DNA from: Spirochaetes bacterium ADurb.BinA120
GTDB lineage: Bacteria > Spirochaetota > UBA4802 > UBA5368
Assembly (NCBI GenBank): GCA_002069125.1
Contig: MVZN01000009.1
Coordinates: forward strand, 1 to 64,000
DNA length: 64,000 bases
Direction: 5' to 3'
Positions 12,148 through 28,056 of this stretch are shown here, piece by piece (positions within the stretch are counted from its first letter, which is position 1; every line of letters begins with the position of its first letter). Both the position numbers and the translations under genes were made by a program. Below the pieces are notes generated by a model. It had not been told where the DNA came from. It saw only the letters and a list, made by a program, of their open reading frames with translations, and ran no database searches.

Positions 12148-13236
12148 TTACGGGCGCATTAGCTTCCTCCCGGAAGGGGCCGCGCCGCCCTTGGACTCGT
12201 AAAGCCTCGTGAATTCTTCCATGTACACGCGGGCTATCTCCTCGTTATGGATGATGAGTATGTTTTCGTCGTTTCTGAGGTTCGCTCCGCGCGAGTAGTT
12301 GAACGATCCGGTTATTACAATAGACTCGTCGATGATCATCACCTTGTGATGCATGCGCCCGATGCCGGAAATGATTCTTACGGGAATGCCCTCGATTTTA
12401 AATTTTACGAATTGGGAGTCCCTGCTGTTCGTTCCGGTCTTTTCCATGACCCCGCCGACGTCCAGGCCGTTTTTATGGAGCCGTACAAGCTCTTCGCCGA
12501 GCGGTTTGCTTGTGAACGAAAAGGCCATAAAGCGTACGGACCGCCTGGCTTTCGTTAGGCGCTTCAGGATGATTCGCTCGACATTGTCGTCCGGCGAGAA
12601 ATACGCGTTTACGTCGGTATTCCCGATCCTTACATGGTATTTCTTCGTGAGCGCCGCGAAGGCGCCGAACTCTCTCCTGTTTCCGAAGACGCCGTCTCGG
12701 TGCATCTCCATGAATTCCGCGGTGAATATCTCCGCGAGCTCGGGGGAGTATATAGCGATGGCGTTGTTGTCGTTTTTCATCGCGCCGTTGAGCGTGAGGT
12801 TGTATGAGCCGGTCCATACGAACGCTCCATCGACGACCGCGAACTTGTTGTGCATGAGGCCGGGCCCGTTGTCGGTGACCACCGGGATTCCGGCATTGGC
12901 CAGGGAGCGCAGCGGCGCCTTTTGCGCGTTGTCACGTTCCGTCACTATGCGCACGTCTATGCCGCGGCGATGGGCCTCAAGCAGTCGGGCGGCGATCGTT
13001 TCGTCTGAAATGTCGTAAAACGCGCCGTAAACGCTCCGCGAGGCGTGACCGATGAGCCGCTTGAAGGCGGCGTCGGGCGAGTTGTCGTTTCTTCGGGAGG
13101 CCGAAGCCCCAGGATTTGCAAAATAGACCCGCCACCATCCGTTCTCCCGATTGCCTTCCGGCGCCGGGGAGGAGGCAAGGAGCAAAATCGCGGCGAGCGG
13201 GGCGATTCGGGCGATACTGAAAGTGGGCATGCGCAT
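12148..13236 (-). CDS. Exported phospholipase D family protein
   Basis: A PLD-superfamily protein of 362 aa with two HKD motifs. The first is HNKFAVVDGAFVWTGSYN (around residues 130-147). The second is HHKVMIIDESIVITGSFN, about 170 residues later. Both keep the H, K and D and the trailing G-S-x-N. A Sec-type signal peptide (about residues 8-24) suggests a periplasmic or external enzyme. The family includes phosphodiesterases acting on phospholipids or nucleic acid (Nuc-like); the substrate here is not determinable. It lies 26 bp upstream of the propeller gene on the same strand. Confidence 0.85.
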   Translation of the reverse strand: MRMPTFSIARIAPLAAILLLASSPAPEGNRENGWWRVYFANPGASASRRNDNSPDAAFKRLIGHASRSVYGAFYDISDETIAARLLEAHRRGIDVRIVTERDNAQKAPLRSLANAGIPVVTDNGPGLMHNKFAVVDGAFVWTGSYNLTLNGAMKNDNNAIAIYSPELAEIFTAEFMEMHRDGVFGNRREFGAFAALTKKYHVRIGNTDVNAYFSPDDNVERIILKRLTKARRSVRFMAFSFTSKPLGEELVRLHKNGLDVGGVMEKTGTNSRDSQFVKFKIEGIPVRIISGIGRMHHKVMIIDESIVITGSFNYSRGANLRNDENILIIHNEEIARVYMEEFTRLYESKGGAAPSGRKLMRP

Positions 13237-13263: not shown

Positions 13264-14247
13264 TCAGGCCCCATCCTGAAGGGCGGATTTTTTCTCGTAT
13301 AACATGTTTTCGAATTCCGTAAAGAGGAGCTGGTCGTCCGTGCCCGGATACATCAGCTTTACCTTCGCGATCAGCGTAAAAAAGGAGGCGAGCGGGGCGG
13401 CGTCGTTCATTCTCTCGATAATGGAGCGGACCTCCGCCTCTTTCTTTCCGAGCAGATGGATGTAAAACCGTAATGAGCCCTGAATGGCCTCCAGTTTAGG
13501 GAGGTTCTTTCGGATTTCAGCGTCCTCTTCGCTTTTGGAAAGCATCGTCGAAACGAAACTGAGTATATACTCCGCCTCGAGCGGGGACAGGTCGAAGTCG
13601 AGTATGAGCTGGTTCACCTTGGAGATGTTCATCTCGCGCAGATGGACGCGGGCGAGGAATACCGGGTTGTTCGACATCATGTTTATGTTTACGTCCTTCG
13701 CCACCTCGGTCGCGCGCTGGTCGTCGAAGCTGTTGATCTCGCTCTCCTCCCTGGGGGCGCCGCCGTCCTCGTCCCTGCCGCCCGCCAGGATTATATGGGC
13801 GTCGGCGAGCCTGTTTTTGATGATTATAATGTCGTTGCGTGTCACCGAGCCGCTTACCACTATATGGTCGGGTCTGGTTCCGGCCTCGGTCTCGCGCACC
13901 AGCGAGGAGATGTCCCTTAGGGCCTTAAGCCTTACGGGGATAAGGTCGATGCCTCTTTCGGCGGGGATGAAGATATAGCGCTGCCTGCGATCGGCGTCTG
14001 TATCGACATAGGGAATTACGATCTGCCCCCTTGTGGCCTTTAAAAAGGACATCTCCGCGCCCGCGTTGTTCTTTACCGTGAAACTTCCGCCGACGAAAAT
14101 GACGAGAGGGACCCGGTGCAGAACCTTCAGGCCAGCGGCGTCCGCGTAAATGGTTTTTCCCTTTTCGTCGAAGGCAAGATAATTCCATTTTTTCGGAAAT
14201 ACCTTGAGCGTTATGCCGCGGGGTGTCGCCTGTTCTATGAAATCCAT
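13264..14247 (-). CDS. Hypothetical cytosolic protein of 327 aa
   Basis: Not recognised. There is no signal peptide or membrane segment. Residues 1-110 are strand-rich with YIFIPAERGIDLIPVRLKAL. Residues 115-160 hold an alternating strand-helix block with HIVVSGSVTRNDIIIIKNRL. The C-terminal half (190-320) is strongly helical, for example LREMNISKVNQLILDFDLS. It is divergently transcribed from the giant repeat protein, 88 bp apart, and is followed by the PLD gene 27 bp downstream on the same strand. Confidence 0.55.
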   Translation of the reverse strand: MDFIEQATPRGITLKVFPKKWNYLAFDEKGKTIYADAAGLKVLHRVPLVIFVGGSFTVKNNAGAEMSFLKATRGQIVIPYVDTDADRRQRYIFIPAERGIDLIPVRLKALRDISSLVRETEAGTRPDHIVVSGSVTRNDIIIIKNRLADAHIILAGGRDEDGGAPREESEINSFDDQRATEVAKDVNINMMSNNPVFLARVHLREMNISKVNQLILDFDLSPLEAEYILSFVSTMLSKSEEDAEIRKNLPKLEAIQGSLRFYIHLLGKKEAEVRSIIERMNDAAPLASFFTLIAKVKLMYPGTDDQLLFTEFENMLYEKKSALQDGA

Positions 14248-14371
14248 ATATATGGAGCCTATCGGGCCGATTGTCTTAAATCAAACACTTTTTGGCCTTT
14301 AATAAAATATTTGACAATCACCTTCGACGAAAGGGATGATCGAGGATCGTTATTCCCGCGTCCGGAGATAT

Positions 14372-17300
14372 ATGATGAAGCCTGTCAACGTAAGCCTGAG
14401 AACAATGCGCGGCGGCGCGATCAGCGCCTTTTCGAGCCAGCTCGACGATGCGCACCCGGCGGCCGCCGTGCTTGAAGACGATGGATACTGGAGCAGCCAG
14501 AAAAGCAATTCCATGGTCCCCGAGTATATCACCATCGATTACGGAGATATTGTTCCCGTCGACCGCGTCGAGATAGACGCTTCGCCGGCCGGCAGGGTGA
14601 CCTTTCCCCACGACTTCAGGCTGGAGTTGAGCGTCGACGGCGCGGTATGGCGCGTGGTCAGGAGCGAGAGAAAATACGAGATGGAGGATGGCCCGGCATA
14701 CCGTCTCGACCTCCCACTTGCGCTTGCCCGCTTCATCAGGCTGTATATAACGAGACCGCGCAAAACCGGAACAAAATACTTTTCCGAAATCGGCGCCATA
14801 AGGGCGGGCATTGGCGGGGCCCGCGAGGTGAGCGCGTCGAGCCATTCGTCCTACGAACACGCGCCGAGGCTGCTGCTGGAAAGCGCCGGCGCGTCCTTCT
14901 GGGAATCGGAGGTCCGAACAGGCGCGTCCCGTGAACACGTAGAGATCGATCTGGGAAGGACGCTTCATGTCAACGGCGTGTGGCTCGCCTCCGCCGGCAT
15001 GATTCCCCATGGTTTTCCCGAGAACTATTCAATAGAGGTCAGCGCCGACCGCACCGTATGGGCCCCGCTCGTGGAGGAAAAATTCTTTTCCGCGCAGCCG
15101 GCCACCACCTATTTTCACGAGGCCGCGGTGACGCCGGCGCGCTATGTCCGTGTCGAGATGAGCACTGTTCTGATAGAGTCCAGAACCTTCGGGGCCCGCC
15201 TGGCCGGTTTCGCCGTAAGCGCCGCCCCCTTCGAATTTACCCACACCCACAACATCGGCGAACTGACTCCGCAGGCATCCATCTTCCAGGCTGGAGTGGT
15301 GCGCCTGGCCCGCGACGGAGACGATTCGCTAGGCACGGTGGTGCAGGCCAGCGACCGCCGTCTCCGCGACGCCACAACGGTGTTCAAGGGGGTGGTGCGG
15401 CTCGCCGAGGACGGGGACGACAGGCCGGGACTCGCCGTACAATCGTCCGACTCGCGCTTCAAGCCCGCTTCGGAGCTCCGGCCGGGCATGGTGCGGCTTG
15501 CCTACGACCGGGAGAGCAAACCCGGCATAGCGGTGCAGGCGAACGATTCGCGCCTGGCCGAGGCTACGGAGAACTCCTACGGCACGGTCCGTCTCTGCCC
15601 TGACGGGGTATATTCCGAGATGAGCGTGGTCAGGGGGGCGGACAGCAGGCTTAAAAAGGCCACGACGATGGCCCACGGCATATGCCGCCTTGCGGCCGAC
15701 GGCGAGAACAACCCGGAATGCGTGGTGCAGGGGAACGACCGCAGGCTTCGTGACGGCACGACCATCAACAAGGGCATTGTGGAGCTTGCCGAGGACGGCG
15801 AGGCGGCGGAGGGCGTGGCGGTACAGGGAAACGACCGGCGCCTGAAAGACGCGACCACGATGGCGAAGGGCATTGTGGAGCTTGCCGAGGACGGGGAGGA
15901 CCGCGAAAATGTCGCGGTGCAGGGAAACGACCGCAGGCTTAAGGACGCCGGCGATTCGTCGAAGGGCATTCTGCGCTTCGCGAAGGACGGCGAGGATTCG
16001 CCGCTGGCGGCGGTGCAGGGGAGCGACCGGCGTTTGAAAGACGCGACCACGACGGCGAAGGGCATTGTGGAGCTCGCCGAGGACGGTGAGAATTCCCCGC
16101 TTGTCGCGGTGCAGGGGAGCGACCGCAGGCTTAAGGACGCCGGCGATTCGTCGAAGGGCATTCTGCGCTTCGCGAAGGACGGCGAGGATTCGCCGCTGGC
16201 GGCGGTGCAGGGGAGCGACCGGCGTCTTAAAGACGCGACCACGACCGCGAAGGGGATTGTGGAGCTTGCCGAGGATGGCGAGGACCGCGAATGCGTCGCG
16301 GTACAGGGGAGCGACCGTCGCCTTAAAGACGCGACCACGACGGCGAAGGGCATTGTGGAGCTTGCCGAGGATGGCGAGGACCGCGAATGCGTCGCGGTAC
16401 AGGGGAGCGACCGAAGGCTTAAGGACGCCGGCGATTCGTCGAAGGGCATTCTGCGCTTCGCGAAGGATGGCGAGGATTCGCCCCTGTCGGCGGTGCAGGG
16501 GAGCGACCGCCGCCTGAAAAACGCGACCACAACGGCGAGGGGCATTGTGGAGCTCGCCGAGGACGGCGAGGCGGCCGAGGGCGTCGCGGTACAGGGGAGC
16601 GACCGCCGTTTGAAAGACGCGACCACCATGGCGAAGGGCATTGTGGAGCTTGCCGAGGACGGCGAGGATGCCGAGGGAGTCGTGGTGCAGGGGAACGATC
16701 GGAGGCTTAAAAACGCCACCGAGGAGGCGCCGGGGATCGTGGTTCTTGCGGCTAACGGAGAGGCCAGAAGGGGGGCCGTGCTCCAGTCGGACGACGTACG
16801 GCTTTCGGACGCGCGCGAGCCGCTCCCGCATACCCACAACTACGCGCCCCTGGTCCACGCGTACTCCAGCCATTCCGGCGCGATAAGCATTACCGAAAAG
16901 CGCAGTGAGGAGTTTACCGGGGTGACGCCGCCTCCGGACGCCTCCGCGGTGGTCTACGCGAAGAACGAGTCGCCCGGAGAGGGGGCTGTCGGCGTGCTGG
17001 GAATCGCCGCAGGGGGCCGGGAGGGCGCGCCGCGCTCGTGGGGGGTGCTCGGCCATGGCGCGTTCTCGGGGGTCCGCGGGCAGTCGGCGGGAACGGAGGC
17101 TAACGGGCCGCGGGGCTGCGGCGTGCTGGGCGTTTCGCGTTTCGGCGCGGGAGGGGTTTTCGCGAGCGAGCATTCCTACTCGCTTGTCGTCGACGGGTTT
17201 GGCTCGATCGACGAGTACGACGATACTGTGAATCTTGTGGGCAACGGCGAGGCGCTCATGGTGCGGGGCTCTTCGGAGTTCCATGGCAGGGTGCGCATAC

Positions 17301-17734
17301 ACAACCCGAGCCGTGAGGGATCGTTTCCGGTAAACATCGTGGAGATGTTCGAGGTGGACGACATAGATTACATATCCCCCGGTGACATACTTGCGGTCAG
17401 CGCTCAGGGCGGCGGACGGCTTTCCCGCTCGAGCGGGGCTTACATGCGTTCGGTAATTGGGATCGTATCGGGGAACCCGACCCTGGTGGTCGATAATACG
17501 GGGGCTTCGCGCAAGGCCTATCCGGTCGCACTGGCGGGAAAAGTGCTCTGCAAGGTCGATGCGCGCAATCGTCCGATCCGGCCGGGCGATCTTATAGTAA
17601 CATCCGAAACGCCGGGCTGCGGCATGGCGGGCGAGATGGATTCGCTCGCGAAAATTGGCACGGTTATCGGCAAGGCGCTGGACGGCCTTTCGGACGGGCT
17701 TGGCGCCATACCGGTCTTCGTGGCCCACCTGTGA
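14372..17734 (+). CDS. Tail-fibre-like repeat protein with two discoidin domains
   Basis: A very large protein of about 1,120 aa. Two F5/8-type-C (discoidin) carbohydrate-binding-like domains fill residues 5-150 and 153-290. Sixteen 32-aa repeats follow (308-819), consensus GIVELAEDGEDxxxVAVQG then SDRRLKDATTTAK, very like phage tail-fibre repeats. The array is bracketed by HTHN motifs (THTHN before, HTHNYAP after). The C-terminal 300 aa contain Gly-rich GVLG strands and a tail with PVALAGKVLCKV and GDLIVTSETPG, resembling spike maturation domains. No signal peptide is seen. The start at 14372 has GGAG four bases upstream; an earlier in-frame ATG at 14336 has AAAGGG touching it. Likely an adhesive fibre; no phage genes are nearby. 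Confidence 0.75.
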   Translation: MMKPVNVSLRTMRGGAISAFSSQLDDAHPAAAVLEDDGYWSSQKSNSMVPEYITIDYGDIVPVDRVEIDASPAGRVTFPHDFRLELSVDGAVWRVVRSERKYEMEDGPAYRLDLPLALARFIRLYITRPRKTGTKYFSEIGAIRAGIGGAREVSASSHSSYEHAPRLLLESAGASFWESEVRTGASREHVEIDLGRTLHVNGVWLASAGMIPHGFPENYSIEVSADRTVWAPLVEEKFFSAQPATTYFHEAAVTPARYVRVEMSTVLIESRTFGARLAGFAVSAAPFEFTHTHNIGELTPQASIFQAGVVRLARDGDDSLGTVVQASDRRLRDATTVFKGVVRLAEDGDDRPGLAVQSSDSRFKPASELRPGMVRLAYDRESKPGIAVQANDSRLAEATENSYGTVRLCPDGVYSEMSVVRGADSRLKKATTMAHGICRLAADGENNPECVVQGNDRRLRDGTTINKGIVELAEDGEAAEGVAVQGNDRRLKDATTMAKGIVELAEDGEDRENVAVQGNDRRLKDAGDSSKGILRFAKDGEDSPLAAVQGSDRRLKDATTTAKGIVELAEDGENSPLVAVQGSDRRLKDAGDSSKGILRFAKDGEDSPLAAVQGSDRRLKDATTTAKGIVELAEDGEDRECVAVQGSDRRLKDATTTAKGIVELAEDGEDRECVAVQGSDRRLKDAGDSSKGILRFAKDGEDSPLSAVQGSDRRLKNATTTARGIVELAEDGEAAEGVAVQGSDRRLKDATTMAKGIVELAEDGEDAEGVVVQGNDRRLKNATEEAPGIVVLAANGEARRGAVLQSDDVRLSDAREPLPHTHNYAPLVHAYSSHSGAISITEKRSEEFTGVTPPPDASAVVYAKNESPGEGAVGVLGIAAGGREGAPRSWGVLGHGAFSGVRGQSAGTEANGPRGCGVLGVSRFGAGGVFASEHSYSLVVDGFGSIDEYDDTVNLVGNGEALMVRGSSEFHGRVRIHNPSREGSFPVNIVEMFEVDDIDYISPGDILAVSAQGGGRLSRSSGAYMRSVIGIVSGNPTLVVDNTGASRKAYPVALAGKVLCKVDARNRPIRPGDLIVTSETPGCGMAGEMDSLAKIGTVIGKALDGLSDGLGAIPVFVAHL
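15293..16828 (+). repeat. Tandem array of sixteen 96-bp repeats inside the fibre gene
   Basis: Sixteen in-frame 96-bp units encode 32 aa each, with no length variation. The first four are divergent. Units 6-15 are nearly identical and come in two alternating types, one beginning GIVELAEDG and one GILRFAKDG. The GILRFAKDG type occurs three times (units 8, 10, 13) with almost the same DNA, spaced 192 and 288 bp. This implies recent duplication. Confidence 0.95.
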
Positions 17735-17884: not shown

Positions 17885-18493
17885 TTAGGGCTGCAGACGT
17901 TTCAGGATTTCCAGCTCGGTGCGGCTGAACACCTCTTCCTGGTATTTGTTGACCTCTTTCGCGAGCTCCTTCCCGACATAGGTGATCTTGCGGCTGAAGG
18001 GCCTCTTCTCGTATTCGTCAACCCACATCACGACGGATGTTTTATCGGACTCCCATATACGCGCGCCCTGGTTGTTCTTCAGGGTCTCTCCGGTGAACGG
18101 GCCGTACTGGTCCTGGATGCGCCGGTTTACCTCGTCCATTGCGAGATAGGGGAATCGCACCGCGACGTAATAGAGCCTGGGCTCCGCCTCGGCGGCGGCT
18201 GTTTCGCCCGTTTCCGCCGCCGGGGGCGATTCGCGCATGAAGAAACCGTAGAGGTATTCGATATCGCCGTCTCGCGAGGTGATTATCTTTTTTTCATCGG
18301 TGTAGGTTATCTTGCCGAGCAGGTTTTCCTTCACCGAGTTCAGCGAATCCCCCCACTTGGTCTTGTTGAAGCCCTCGATCGACCTGGCCGTTGTCTTTGC
18401 CGGCTCCTTGGGCGCCGGCGTCGTCTGGGCGATGAGCGATGTGCATGCAGCAAGAACACATGCCGCCAGGAATCCCTCGATGATTCGTTTCAT
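17885..18493 (-). CDS. Exported hypothetical protein, probable lipoprotein
   Basis: 202 aa, not recognised. MKRIIEGFLAACVLAACTS gives a signal peptide with lipobox LAAC (cysteine about 17), then a Thr/Pro/Lys linker. The mature part begins GFNKTKWGDSLNSVKENLLG, a pattern also found in small periplasmic proteins that start with a W-G-x-S helix. It ends in a charged helix with VNKYQEEVFSRTELEILKRL. The start at 18493 is preferred over longer in-frame options because the signal peptide begins there and GAGGAT lies upstream. It is convergent with the fibre gene. Confidence 0.6.
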   Translation of the reverse strand: MKRIIEGFLAACVLAACTSLIAQTTPAPKEPAKTTARSIEGFNKTKWGDSLNSVKENLLGKITYTDEKKIITSRDGDIEYLYGFFMRESPPAAETGETAAAEAEPRLYYVAVRFPYLAMDEVNRRIQDQYGPFTGETLKNNQGARIWESDKTSVVMWVDEYEKRPFSRKITYVGKELAKEVNKYQEEVFSRTELEILKRLQP

Positions 18494-25147: not shown

Positions 25148-26023
25148 ATGTATAACGGCATCCTGCTGCTCCTCCTGGCCGAATTCACCTTCGCGCTCTC
25201 GACCGTTTTCGGAAAGCTCGTCACCAACAACTCGGATATCGGCGGCATACAGATTACCTTCGTGCGTTTCGCCATTGGAACGCTCGTCACAGGCCTATTC
25301 ATGCTCCTCTCGCGGAGATCTTTCAGGCCGAACAACCTGCGCCAGGTGGTACTTCGCGCAGTGTTTAACGTTACCGCCGTGATGCTCTTCTTCGGCGGGC
25401 TTCAGTACACAACGGTTACCAACGCGAACATGCTCAACATGACCTATCCGGCCTTCGTGTTTCTGCTGGCCCCTTTCATAAACGCCGAAAAAACTCGACT
25501 GCGGAACATCTTCTATCTCCTTTTGACCATGGCGGGCGTTTATCTCGTCGTGGCGCCGGATTTTCGAAACGTCAATCCGGGAGACCTGCTGTCCCTTGCC
25601 TCCGGGCTGGTCGCTGGTTTCGGTATCCCTTTTCTAAGGGAGGCGCGCAAATACGATTCGAGCGAGGTCATAGTTTTTTATCTGATGCTCTTCGGTTGCC
25701 TCATGAGCGGGGTATTCCTCATGTGGGACTGCTCCGTTCCGCGCGGCATGGTCGCCGTTTACCTGCTGCTCTCCGGGGTATCGGCGGCGCTTGGGCAGGT
25801 CCTCATCACCATCGGCTACCGATACATTGAGGCCGCGGCCGGGTCGCTTGTTTCTTCCAGCCGTATCATCTTTGCCGGAATAATGGGGGTGATCATCTTC
25901 GCCGACCCATTTACCGCGCCTATCCTGACGGGCGCGCTTCTCATTCTGTTGTCGCTTATGGGCGTTGGAGGCCTGTGGGAAAAAGCGGGGGATTGGATTA
26001 AGCGTCGATTTGGGGCTGCCTGA
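25148..26023 (+). CDS. EamA/DMT-family membrane transporter
   Basis: 291 aa with about ten transmembrane helices in two homologous halves of five, the EamA arrangement. The first half starts AEFTFALSTVFGKLV and has TYPAFVFLLAPF. The second half has SGVSAALGQVLITIGYRYIEAAAGSLVSSSRIIFAGIMG-type helices in order. The substrate is unknown; the superfamily exports metabolites or amino acids. It follows plsC by 63 bp on the same strand and may be co-transcribed. Confidence 0.85.
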   Translation: MYNGILLLLLAEFTFALSTVFGKLVTNNSDIGGIQITFVRFAIGTLVTGLFMLLSRRSFRPNNLRQVVLRAVFNVTAVMLFFGGLQYTTVTNANMLNMTYPAFVFLLAPFINAEKTRLRNIFYLLLTMAGVYLVVAPDFRNVNPGDLLSLASGLVAGFGIPFLREARKYDSSEVIVFYLMLFGCLMSGVFLMWDCSVPRGMVAVYLLLSGVSAALGQVLITIGYRYIEAAAGSLVSSSRIIFAGIMGVIIFADPFTAPILTGALLILLSLMGVGGLWEKAGDWIKRRFGAA

Positions 26024-26048
26024 CTGAGAAAGTTAGCCTAATTCTTTT

Positions 26049-26147
26049 GGGTAGTCACAAAAACTGTGTTTCCCCGCCCGCCGAAGGCGGGCGGATAAAC
26101 CTAACTGTTGAATTTTTCAGTAGTTGCATTTTTAGGACTTCCCTTAG
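26049..26147 (+). repeat. Dispersed GC-palindrome repeat, copy 1
   Basis: About 100 bp beginning GGGTAGTC and ending near CCCTTAG. Its core is a 9-bp perfect palindrome with a GAA loop (26074-26082 / 26086-26094). The same order of blocks (GGGTAGTC, palindrome, CAGTAGTTGCATTTT, TAGGACTT) recurs at 61111-61234. Confidence 0.8.
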
Positions 26148-26170
26148 TATATATTATTAGTAGAACTGTT

Positions 26171-26575
26171 ATGAAAAAGATAATGCTGATAACTATAATT
26201 GCGCTGCTTCCCTTCCTAAACCATGCCCAGGGGAGCGAAGCGAAAAAATCAATAAAACCAACCTGTATTTCAGGAGATTGTAAAAACGGCAAAGGCGTAT
26301 TAATTTATGCCAGTGGTAATCGTTACGAGGGAGACTTCAAGGATGGCAAATTCGACGGCAAAGGCGTCATAATTTTTACCAATGGTGCTCGTTACGAGGG
26401 AGACTGGAAGAATGACAAACGGCACGGCAAAGGCGTCTTAATTTATGCCAATGGTGATCGTTACGAGGGAGACTTCAAGGATGGCAAAATCCACGGAATC
26501 GGTACCCTTTATAACTCTAAAAATAAAATCTTAAAAAAAGGCAGATGGGAAAAGGGTGAATATGTAGGGCCGTGA
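26171..26575 (+). CDS. Exported MORN-repeat protein
   Basis: 134 aa. A Sec signal peptide (MKKIMLITIIALLPFLNHAQG) is followed by three clean 23-aa MORN repeats of the form GKGVLIYASGNRYEGDFKDG and a fourth partial one (GIGTLYNSKNK). MORN repeats form beta-hairpin platforms that bind proteins or membranes. An in-frame ATG at 26108 is discounted because it lies within the dispersed repeat and upstream of the signal peptide. The gene is markedly more AT-rich than its neighbours and lacks a good Shine-Dalgarno sequence, which points to acquisition by transfer. Confidence 0.75.
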   Translation: MKKIMLITIIALLPFLNHAQGSEAKKSIKPTCISGDCKNGKGVLIYASGNRYEGDFKDGKFDGKGVIIFTNGARYEGDWKNDKRHGKGVLIYANGDRYEGDFKDGKIHGIGTLYNSKNKILKKGRWEKGEYVGP

Positions 26576-26837
26576 CGGGGCTCTTCTTCAATCGACAATA
26601 CTATATCACCATACCTAAAGTAACCTCAATCAAACTTAACCTTCGGCAAGGCGTTTACTATATCAACAGTTTTAACGATGACATTGATTATACCGTCACC
26701 GCGTTATCCTGCGTACTGATAGGCCGGTTCTTGTCGTCTCAAAGAAAACCTGAAAATTCCGGCTTTTAGAATTCCCCATAATATTATATCCGATTGCTCT
26801 TAAAAAGTGATTGGAAAATCACAGCCGATGAATTAAT
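26576..26837. other. AT-rich intergenic stretch left of the IS element
   Basis: No supported gene. An open frame of 65 codons overlaps the MORN stop but has no ribosome site or recognisable product. The 3' part of the toxin gene cut at 27838 would be expected here on the minus strand but was not recognised. Confidence 0.4.
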
Positions 26838-27837
26838 GTAACTATTCCGCACACCCGGGCATAAAAGGCCTGTTTTCAAAAAGCCCCTGAATTGCTTCAA
26901 AGACATTGACATCATTTTTTTTCACCGTTGAAATATATCCTCGGATTCTGGCGAAAAACATACTACCTTCAATGTTCCTGAAGCACCCGGAAATTTTCTG
27001 CTGCACTTTTACCATTCGCAAATCACGTTCAGCCTGATTGTTGTCAAATGGAATCGAAAAATCCCTCACGAAACCAAGTATGCCCGGCTTATACAACTTC
27101 AGCCGTTCGAGTAAATTGCGGGGCTTCGATTTTTTCTTCCTGCCTCGCCGCACCGTACCATCATCCCTGTCCGGATTCTTGCGGAATCCTTTCTGGACTA
27201 TCCGGTCATATCCATCCTCAAACATTCCTATGGTCTCTTTATTCAAACGTAAAGAACGCACCTCGACTTTCTTTTTGGCCTCAACTAACAATTTTTTCAT
27301 TTCCAGCGGCCATTTCTGTTTGAAATCTTCATGTATGCCGGTGAGTTCCCTCAGTATATGGGCATTACAGAATACATGTTCACAATCATACGATAGATAC
27401 GGTTTCCAAAAATCGTGCATTAAACGGCCGCGATATTCAGGAATGATTCCCATGGCCTCAATCGCATTTCCCTCATTTCTCGACCGAATGAACATTGATT
27501 TTATCAGGTTGAGCGCTCATTTTCAGTTGGGCTACCCTCGTGTCCCTTCTGACCACCGGGCTTCTTCCGGCTCTTGCGCTCTCGTGCACGCCGGTCTTTT
27601 CTGCTCAATCCATCACTTGAGGGCGGGCGATTGCTGTTCTTGCTGTCCTTGTTTAAACGACGCTCCAATTCTTCGATTCTGGCGAAAAGCGTCTCTATCA
27701 AATCCAGTATCGCTTCAGGGTCACGTTCAAGCAGCTTTCTCAATTCGTCGCGTTTCATGCGACATAATTACTACTGCACCAATACAATTAATACCTTTTT
27801 TTCTCCTTGAAAAAACAATTTTTTGCTGAATAGTTAC
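26838..27837 (-). mobile_element. IS66-like insertion element, internally deleted
   Basis: A 1,000-bp element bounded by 14-bp inverted repeats with one mismatch: GTAACTATTCCGCA at 26838-26851, and the complement of GTAACTATTCAGCA at 27824-27837. IS66-family ends typically begin GTAA. Both transposase parts inside belong to IS66 TnpC. The expected 8-bp target duplication is not clear; ATTAA/ATTAA sequences flank the ends, but this is ambiguous because the ends themselves are AT-rich. No tnpA or tnpB is present. The element is non-functional as it stands. Confidence 0.75.
26842..27758 (-). pseudogene. IS66 TnpC transposase, broken by an internal deletion
   Basis: Two pieces in different frames. 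The N-terminal piece (27758-27504, 84 aa) has the IS66 leader helix IEELERRLNKDSKNSNRPPS and the Lys-rich KPGGQKGHEG. The C-terminal piece (27495-26842, 217 aa) has HDFWKPYLSYDCEHVFCNAHILREL and the final DDE-domain block FDNNQAERDLRMVKVQQKISG with its C-terminal helix. The zinc-finger domain and the first part of the catalytic domain, roughly 150-200 residues of a normal ~500-aa TnpC, are missing between them. The stop codon lies inside the left terminal repeat. Confidence 0.85.
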
Positions 27838-27927
27838 AATTAACATTTTCAAAATAGCTTCTCGAGCATCATCATCAAGTGATGTTATCCATTTCGCCAA
27901 TTGGTCCGTTCTTTTTAGCTCCCACAT
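27838..27927 (-). pseudogene. Truncated HigB/Gp49-like toxin, interrupted by the IS66 element
   Basis: The first 30 codons of a RelE/ParE-superfamily toxin: MWELKRTDQLAKWITSLDDD and then an alanine-rich helix, matching the Gp49/HigB start (M-W-E-V, T-D-x-F, W-x-x-S-L). The frame then crosses exactly into the IS right end at 27837 and reads on for 36 meaningless codons. The rest of the toxin and its antitoxin were not found on the far side of the element. The call rests on a short match. Confidence 0.55.
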
Positions 27928-28056
27928 CAGTTTAATATATCAAGCCTGTGTTATGAAGTTAAGTGAATATTCATACAAGTTCATATTTGTCGGTTGGGTT
28001 TGTGAGTGCCAATAACATAGAGATAGGTTGAGGGGGCAACCCAGAATAAGCGAGCC

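Follow-up and report, generated by a model that had tools for sequence, protein, structure and literature searches.

General features of the locus

The window, i.e., the whole stretch of 64,000 nucleotides of Spirochaetes bacterium ADurb.BinA120 that was analyzed, encodes a phage-fiber-like discoidin protein (hereafter the fiber). The positions of its gene, its parts and its adjoining genes are listed in Table 1. The fiber start is backed by a GGAG upstream of ATGATG, and this ribosome-binding site and start are common to the fiber gene and its same-genus orthologue. The promoter-like site is of a kind found twice against 1.7 expected in shuffles; a similar sequence is also present at the same-genus orthologue. 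No Rfam match was found near the fiber gene. The conserved start of the convergent gene corresponds to residue 44 of the listed 245-aa frame, and this gene often adjoins the fiber within the order to which the window belongs (uncultured Spirochaetota).

Genes around the fiber encode two radical SAM proteins (one QueE-like), PLD, thioredoxin, D-Tyr-tRNA deacylase, AroK-AroC, RibF and an HI0933-like protein. Phage structural genes were found near the fiber neither in the window, in agreement with the first-pass annotation, which had been made from the DNA letters without database searches, nor in its relatives, and the neighbors are housekeeping genes. In a genome of the same genus (L031), fourteen neighboring genes besides the fiber are in the same order. 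In genomes of the same genus and the same family, the synteny is conserved and of a non-phage kind, which excludes a degraded prophage lying just beyond recognizable range, the case that the annotation had named as its possible refutation. Elsewhere in the window, positions 26001–28000 have a G+C content of 42%, compared with 58% overall, and contain a MORN-repeat protein with a 69-bp tandem repeat at 26286–26496. Two other contigs of the same genome (G000:C147 and G000:C59) carry a portal match and a terminase match, probably belonging to a prophage elsewhere.

Table 1. Features of the fiber locus (positions in the window)
Feature	Position	Strand	Basis
Phage-fiber-like discoidin protein, 1120 aa	14372..17734	+	ORF, Pfam, PHROG
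Promoter-like site TTGACA-18-GATGAT upstream of fiber gene	14311..14340	+	Consensus match alone
First F5/8 type C (discoidin) domain, residues 21–133	14432..14770	+	F5_F8_type_C, E 1e-24
Second F5/8 type C domain, residues 174–261	14891..15154	+	F5_F8_type_C_2, E 3.4e-15
First HTHN, residues 291–294, confined to the window's order	15242..15253	+	
Sixteen 32-aa phage-fiber repeats, residues 308–819, without indels	15293..16828	+	
Second HTHN and His cluster, candidate metal site	16829..16879	+	HTHN at 820–823
GVxG-rich stretch, residues ~874–934, between His cluster and C-terminal domain	16991..17173	+	
C-terminal domain, residues ~987–1120, Peptidase_G2 / preneck appendage-like	17330..17731	+	
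Convergent gene, exported protein, lipoprotein-like signal	17885..18493	-	
Co-inherited partner, 327 aa, divergent from fiber	13264..14247	-	
Two-domain PLD-like protein, beside 327-aa gene in families f1, f2, f3 and f6	12148..13236	-	

Domain architecture of the fiber

The fiber consists, in order, of an N-terminal discoidin pair, a repeat array, a His cluster and a C-terminal domain. The two F5/8C-like domains proposed earlier were recovered by Pfam in two stretches (87.5 bits against a cut-off of 28.2). Discoidin domains alone do not establish an adhesive role.

The repeat array had been described as sixteen exact 32-aa repeats. There are indeed sixteen, spaced by exactly 32 residues in 15 of 15 intervals, but their sequences are not exact, with a mean pairwise identity of 57% and one identical pair. 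The repeats show homology to phage tail families (PHROG 910, "tail collar fiber protein", E 6.5e-11), while the Pfam Phage_fiber_2 match is below the cut-off. Tail-fiber-like proteins of viral contigs contain single units of this repeat. Phage tail collar and tail fiber proteins (PHROG 910; viral contigs L128–L143) have the same GIVELATDGE...VVQGNDSRLSDART unit, in many cases with a His-containing segment after it. However, the phage proteins compared have a few scattered units, whereas the fiber family has 8 or 16 in perfect register, and they show no match to the discoidin pair.

HTHN motifs lie on both sides of the array, as had been noted, and the second alone is conserved outside the window's order. 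Residues H820, H822, Y824, H829, H834 and G836 are invariant across 23 aligned family members, and the His cluster may bind metal.

The C-terminus had been called spike-like. A monomer model of this region is of moderate confidence for the last ~135 residues and mostly of low confidence for the rest. A fold search of the C-terminus in BFVD matched phage preneck appendage proteins (E about 4e-10), which is consistent with that description and suggests a likeness to the preneck appendage / Peptidase_G2 group of intramolecular chaperones. The fold match speaks for a likeness and no more: the Peptidase_G2 profile gave weak matches in 7 of 15 fiber family members (best E 0.0018), and the window's fiber scored 11.4 bits against a cut-off of 25. 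In the PDB, a sequence search with the C-terminal profile returned no match and a fold search returned weak capsid-decoration-type matches only. Hypothetical proteins encoded on plasmids of Streptomyces, Acaryochloris, Hymenobacter and others also contain the domain (about 35% identity), and because these bacterial proteins are otherwise unrelated to the fiber, we regard it as a general module. A 417-aa protein with a hydrophobic N-terminus from family f55 (L113:9651-10901, on a contig of 4,653,970 bases) has this domain of the fiber only. The C-terminal alignment had no match in IMG/VR, and tblastn of 50,697 phage records found no match for either fiber end or for the whole protein. A phage origin of the whole protein was rejected, since the phage records match neither its ends nor its full length.

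By hydropathy and reading of the N-terminus, neither a signal peptide nor a transmembrane stretch was found in the fiber, whose first 60 residues reach a top 15-residue Kyte-Doolittle mean of 0.53. Its orthologues are alike. The earlier statement on the signal peptide is thus upheld, and the N-terminal signal of a Sec-exported or lipoprotein adhesin is absent from the orthologues by the same reading.

Distribution, selection and repeat number

The fiber is present in 43 of the 46 genomes of the window's order, including the window's own genome, where it is single-copy. The three genomes without it are 71–76% complete. Its C-terminal part was detected in 70 of 392 Spirochaetota genomes, mainly in the window's order and in families f11, f22, f32, f36 and f39; the families outside the order that carry the fiber include Leptospira and Turneriella. 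The search of relatives suggested in the first-pass annotation found the same domain order in the Leptospira orthologue, and conserved, non-phage neighbors in same-genus and same-family genomes.

Between the window and the same-genus orthologue, dN/dS is 0.115 for the fiber, 0.105 for aroK-aroC and 0.088 for the 327-aa gene. The fiber is under purifying selection of a strength like that of its housekeeping neighbor. Its gene belongs to the core genome, occurs in single copy and is inherited vertically. Its order-wide core status, the purifying selection and the lack of phage context bear out the earlier proposal that it is host-encoded.

Repeat units were counted in 41 orthologues, with double-counted matches (spacing 30+2) and isolated pattern matches outside the array discounted. 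The spacing is 32 throughout all 41. In the window's order, 15 of 20 orthologues have 16 units, three have 15 and two have 14; the counts of 14 and 15 could reflect assembly collapse. Among the other families, 20 of 21 members have 8 units, and the remaining one (L107) has 5. The L107 locus also lacks the ParA-ParB-initiator genes described below. Tandem repeats normally change copy number easily. Given this lability, the nearly fixed number of units suggests that selection acts on fiber length.

A relic of a prophage, or a selfish gene with no role in the cell, would fit the phage-type repeats and the linkage, in some families, to plasmid- or phage-type replication genes. Nevertheless, the strong purifying selection, the family-level vertical inheritance and the fixed repeat number largely refute this explanation, to which we assign hardly any probability.

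The co-inherited 327-aa protein

The 327-aa protein encoded divergently from the fiber has no Pfam family. Its homologues were identified in 71 of the 392 genomes. Among the 72 genomes with either gene, 67 contain both, two the fiber only and three the 327-aa gene only; this count leaves out G355, where the fiber match is C-terminal only, and G054, where the 327-aa match is weak. Two of the three genomes with the 327-aa gene only (G006 and G043) carry the N-terminal part of the fiber. Genomes of family f7 retain both genes even though these are unlinked there. The fiber and 327-aa trees have 15 of 23 splits in common, compared with a maximum of 3 in 200 label shuffles. None of the strongly supported splits of the fiber tree conflicts with the 327-aa tree, and three strongly supported groupings of the 327-aa tree are missing from the fiber tree. 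Co-occurrence of the two genes within clades is partly a matter of shared ancestry. A link between the fiber and the divergent gene had been raised as a possibility, and the co-occurrence and the congruent trees support it.

The predicted structure of the 327-aa protein (pLDDT 85) comprises an N-terminal beta domain and a C-terminal helical domain, and a PDB fold search with this model found nothing below E 0.03. The protein has no evident export signal. It may act as an assembly factor or a binding partner of the fiber. In family f11, a separate gene of ~160 aa corresponding to the N-terminal domain of the 327-aa family lies beside the full-length gene (L101:15270-15767, L104:16096-16569).

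The Leptospira-type locus and chromosome II

In families f11, f22, f32 and f36, the usual order is ParA, ParB, an HTH_36 protein and then the fiber, together with a divergent sigma-54-activator-like regulator (Fis-type HTH) and the 327-aa homologue. The HTH_36 protein matches replication-initiation families, and its C-terminal part is common to LE1 phages and about a hundred Leptospira plasmids. The ParA-ParB-initiator-fiber locus lies on the ~350-kb replicon of L. interrogans, deposited as a plasmid in two records. Its size and content identify this replicon as chromosome II. In Turneriella parva, the same locus is on pTURPA.01. Within the plasmid collection, homologues of the fiber and the 327-aa protein were found only on the two large L. 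interrogans replicons and on pTURPA.01. The fiber of one f22 genome is 99.9% identical to the pTURPA.01 protein, and f11 is the sampled family nearest to the L. interrogans fiber (50–54% identity). pTURPA.01 (NC_018021.1, 1-25287; L118 / L124) also has mtnB/mtnC and queC/queD, which occur on contigs from related genomes as well. This plasmid could be a fragment or remnant of the same second replicon as in L. interrogans.

The L. interrogans chromosome II protein WP_001083720.1 ("discoidin domain-containing protein") shares 38.7% identity over 96% of the window's fiber. The domain order, repeats and C-terminus are as in the window's fiber, and a 327-aa homologue is present in its locus. It differs in having 8 repeats instead of 16 and no N-terminal HTHN. 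Its gene adjoins the ParA-ParB-initiator genes and metF and is annotated only as hypothetical. The F5/8C annotation, the mass and a gene number that falls where chromosome II begins make LIC20001/LB001 the most likely identity of the L. interrogans fiber, and the window's fiber belongs to the same family by its domain order, its 32-aa register, its His cluster and its C-terminus. LIMLP_17785 was rejected as an orthologue because it is listed on chromosome I. LIC20001/LB001 is a conserved hypothetical protein of 91.0 kDa with an F5/8 type C annotation, and mass spectrometry of a ClpB-trap pull-down, for which lysate at 37 C was used, identified five of its peptides (PMC5979558). As whole lysate was used, the pull-down does not prove that LIC20001 is cytoplasmic. 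The protein is among outer-membrane or extracellular candidates predicted in silico (PMC2387172, PMC5348505), and its transcript is unchanged in host-adapted cells (PMC3953431). In the literature searched, no paper on the function of LIC20001 and nothing relevant on discoidin in Leptospira was found.

The fiber of Leptospira-type families might serve chromosome II maintenance by anchoring or spacing the replicon, a special case of the intracellular tether considered below. The conserved order beside partition and initiation genes is consistent with such a role. The initiator and the fiber also co-occur outside the window's order, while within it the initiator is absent save for one weak match, and the fiber was not found on other Leptospira plasmids with related initiators. 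However, the window's order keeps the fiber and the 327-aa gene without that locus, and the adjacency to replication genes may be historical. The locus-type ParB in G049 scores 455 bits, compared with about 100 for other ParBs, and the lower-scoring type is the only one present in the window's order. Since the ParA-ParB-initiator genes are not beside the fiber in the window's order, a partition role cannot be general, and we consider chromosome II maintenance a doubtful explanation.

Contractile systems and phage-like particles

Tail fibers of eCIS, tailocins and T6SS resemble the window's fiber in having a fiber-like architecture without a signal peptide, and contractile-injection-like delivery had been suggested in the first-pass annotation. 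Such systems are marked by sheath and spike genes, which were not found in fiber-bearing genomes. The PF04984 sheath, the one sheath family that the search covered, is absent from the window's own genome and present in 1 of 59 genomes, one without the fiber. The baseplate spike / VgrG (PF04717) was found in 0 of 59 genomes, with control genomes positive. Pvc16-type PF14065 was also found in 0 of 59, and no control genome was positive for it either. Contractile delivery was rejected on the PF04984 and PF04717 counts. The sole order genome with a phage-type sheath (G044; L079, L080) is 73% complete, has two such genes and lacks the fiber.

The fiber could instead belong to a conserved, unrecognized phage-like particle (a gene transfer agent or tailocin) with its other genes elsewhere. 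Its phage-fiber homology, its one-copy conservation, which resembles that of a domesticated particle, and the fact that such particles may have their structural genes dispersed would agree with this. However, portal PF04860 (6 of 59 genomes) and terminase PF03237 (11 of 59), the one family of each kind that the search covered, are scattered rather than conserved in all fiber carriers. The sheath and spike are nearly or wholly missing, and no phage gene lies near the fiber. A gene transfer agent was rejected on the PF04860 and PF03237 counts. With sheath and spike near-absent and portal and terminase scattered, there is no support for a contractile system or for a conserved transfer agent, and a phage-like particle is improbable.

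Proposed origin and role of the fiber

The reading we prefer, with a probability of roughly 45%, is that the fiber is a phage-type tail fiber that was domesticated as a core cellular protein of Spirochaetota and forms a two-protein module with the 327-aa protein. The fiber is probably trimeric and, like phage fibers, would assemble into a rigid rod whose length is set, with the C-terminal domain aiding trimer folding and the discoidin pair forming the binding end. The fiber gene may have arrived on a phage-plasmid-like replicon, from whose genes for replication and partition the chromosome II locus arose, while the fiber/327-aa module would have persisted in the window's order without them.

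Where the rod acts is less certain. It could be a host surface adhesin, a trimeric fiber that reaches the surface or the medium by a non-Sec route (lysis of part of the cells, vesicles or an exporter), where its discoidin domains would bind glycans. Two such domains, an architecture in the style of phage receptor-binding proteins and the in-silico surface predictions for LIC20001 favor this; a signal peptide is present in no orthologue checked, the sheath and spike searches were empty in all but one genome, and the 327-aa partner is also without evident export signal. We regard such an adhesin as possible, though rather unlikely.

Alternatively, the rod might be a fixed-length tether within the cell or on the inner side of the envelope. 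We lean tentatively toward this location because the proteins start without export signals, no secretion machine searched for co-occurs with the fiber, and the Leptospira-type locus is linked to chromosome II. Discoidin domains and fiber tips usually act outside cells. The intracellular location is weakened by this and by the surface predictions for LIC20001, and the non-Sec adhesin is a close rival to it. The more specific proposal, that a tail fiber domesticated when these spirochete lineages first arose became an intracellular rod of 8 or 16 units, which physically organizes the cell together with the 327-aa protein and spaces or anchors chromosome II in Leptospira, is speculative and has a low probability.

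These results turn an orphan "tail fiber" into a defined, testable family that belongs to the core genes of an entire order and of the Leptospira-type families. Its repeat number hardly varies, it is inherited together with a partner, and in Leptospira it sits at the replication-partition locus of chromosome II. They suggest that parts of phage fibers can be co-opted for a cellular role without an injection machine, and the locus bears on the origin of the second chromosome of Leptospira. If an intracellular rod that organizes the cell proves true, the fiber would be a virus-derived element of the bacterial cytoskeleton or segregation apparatus.
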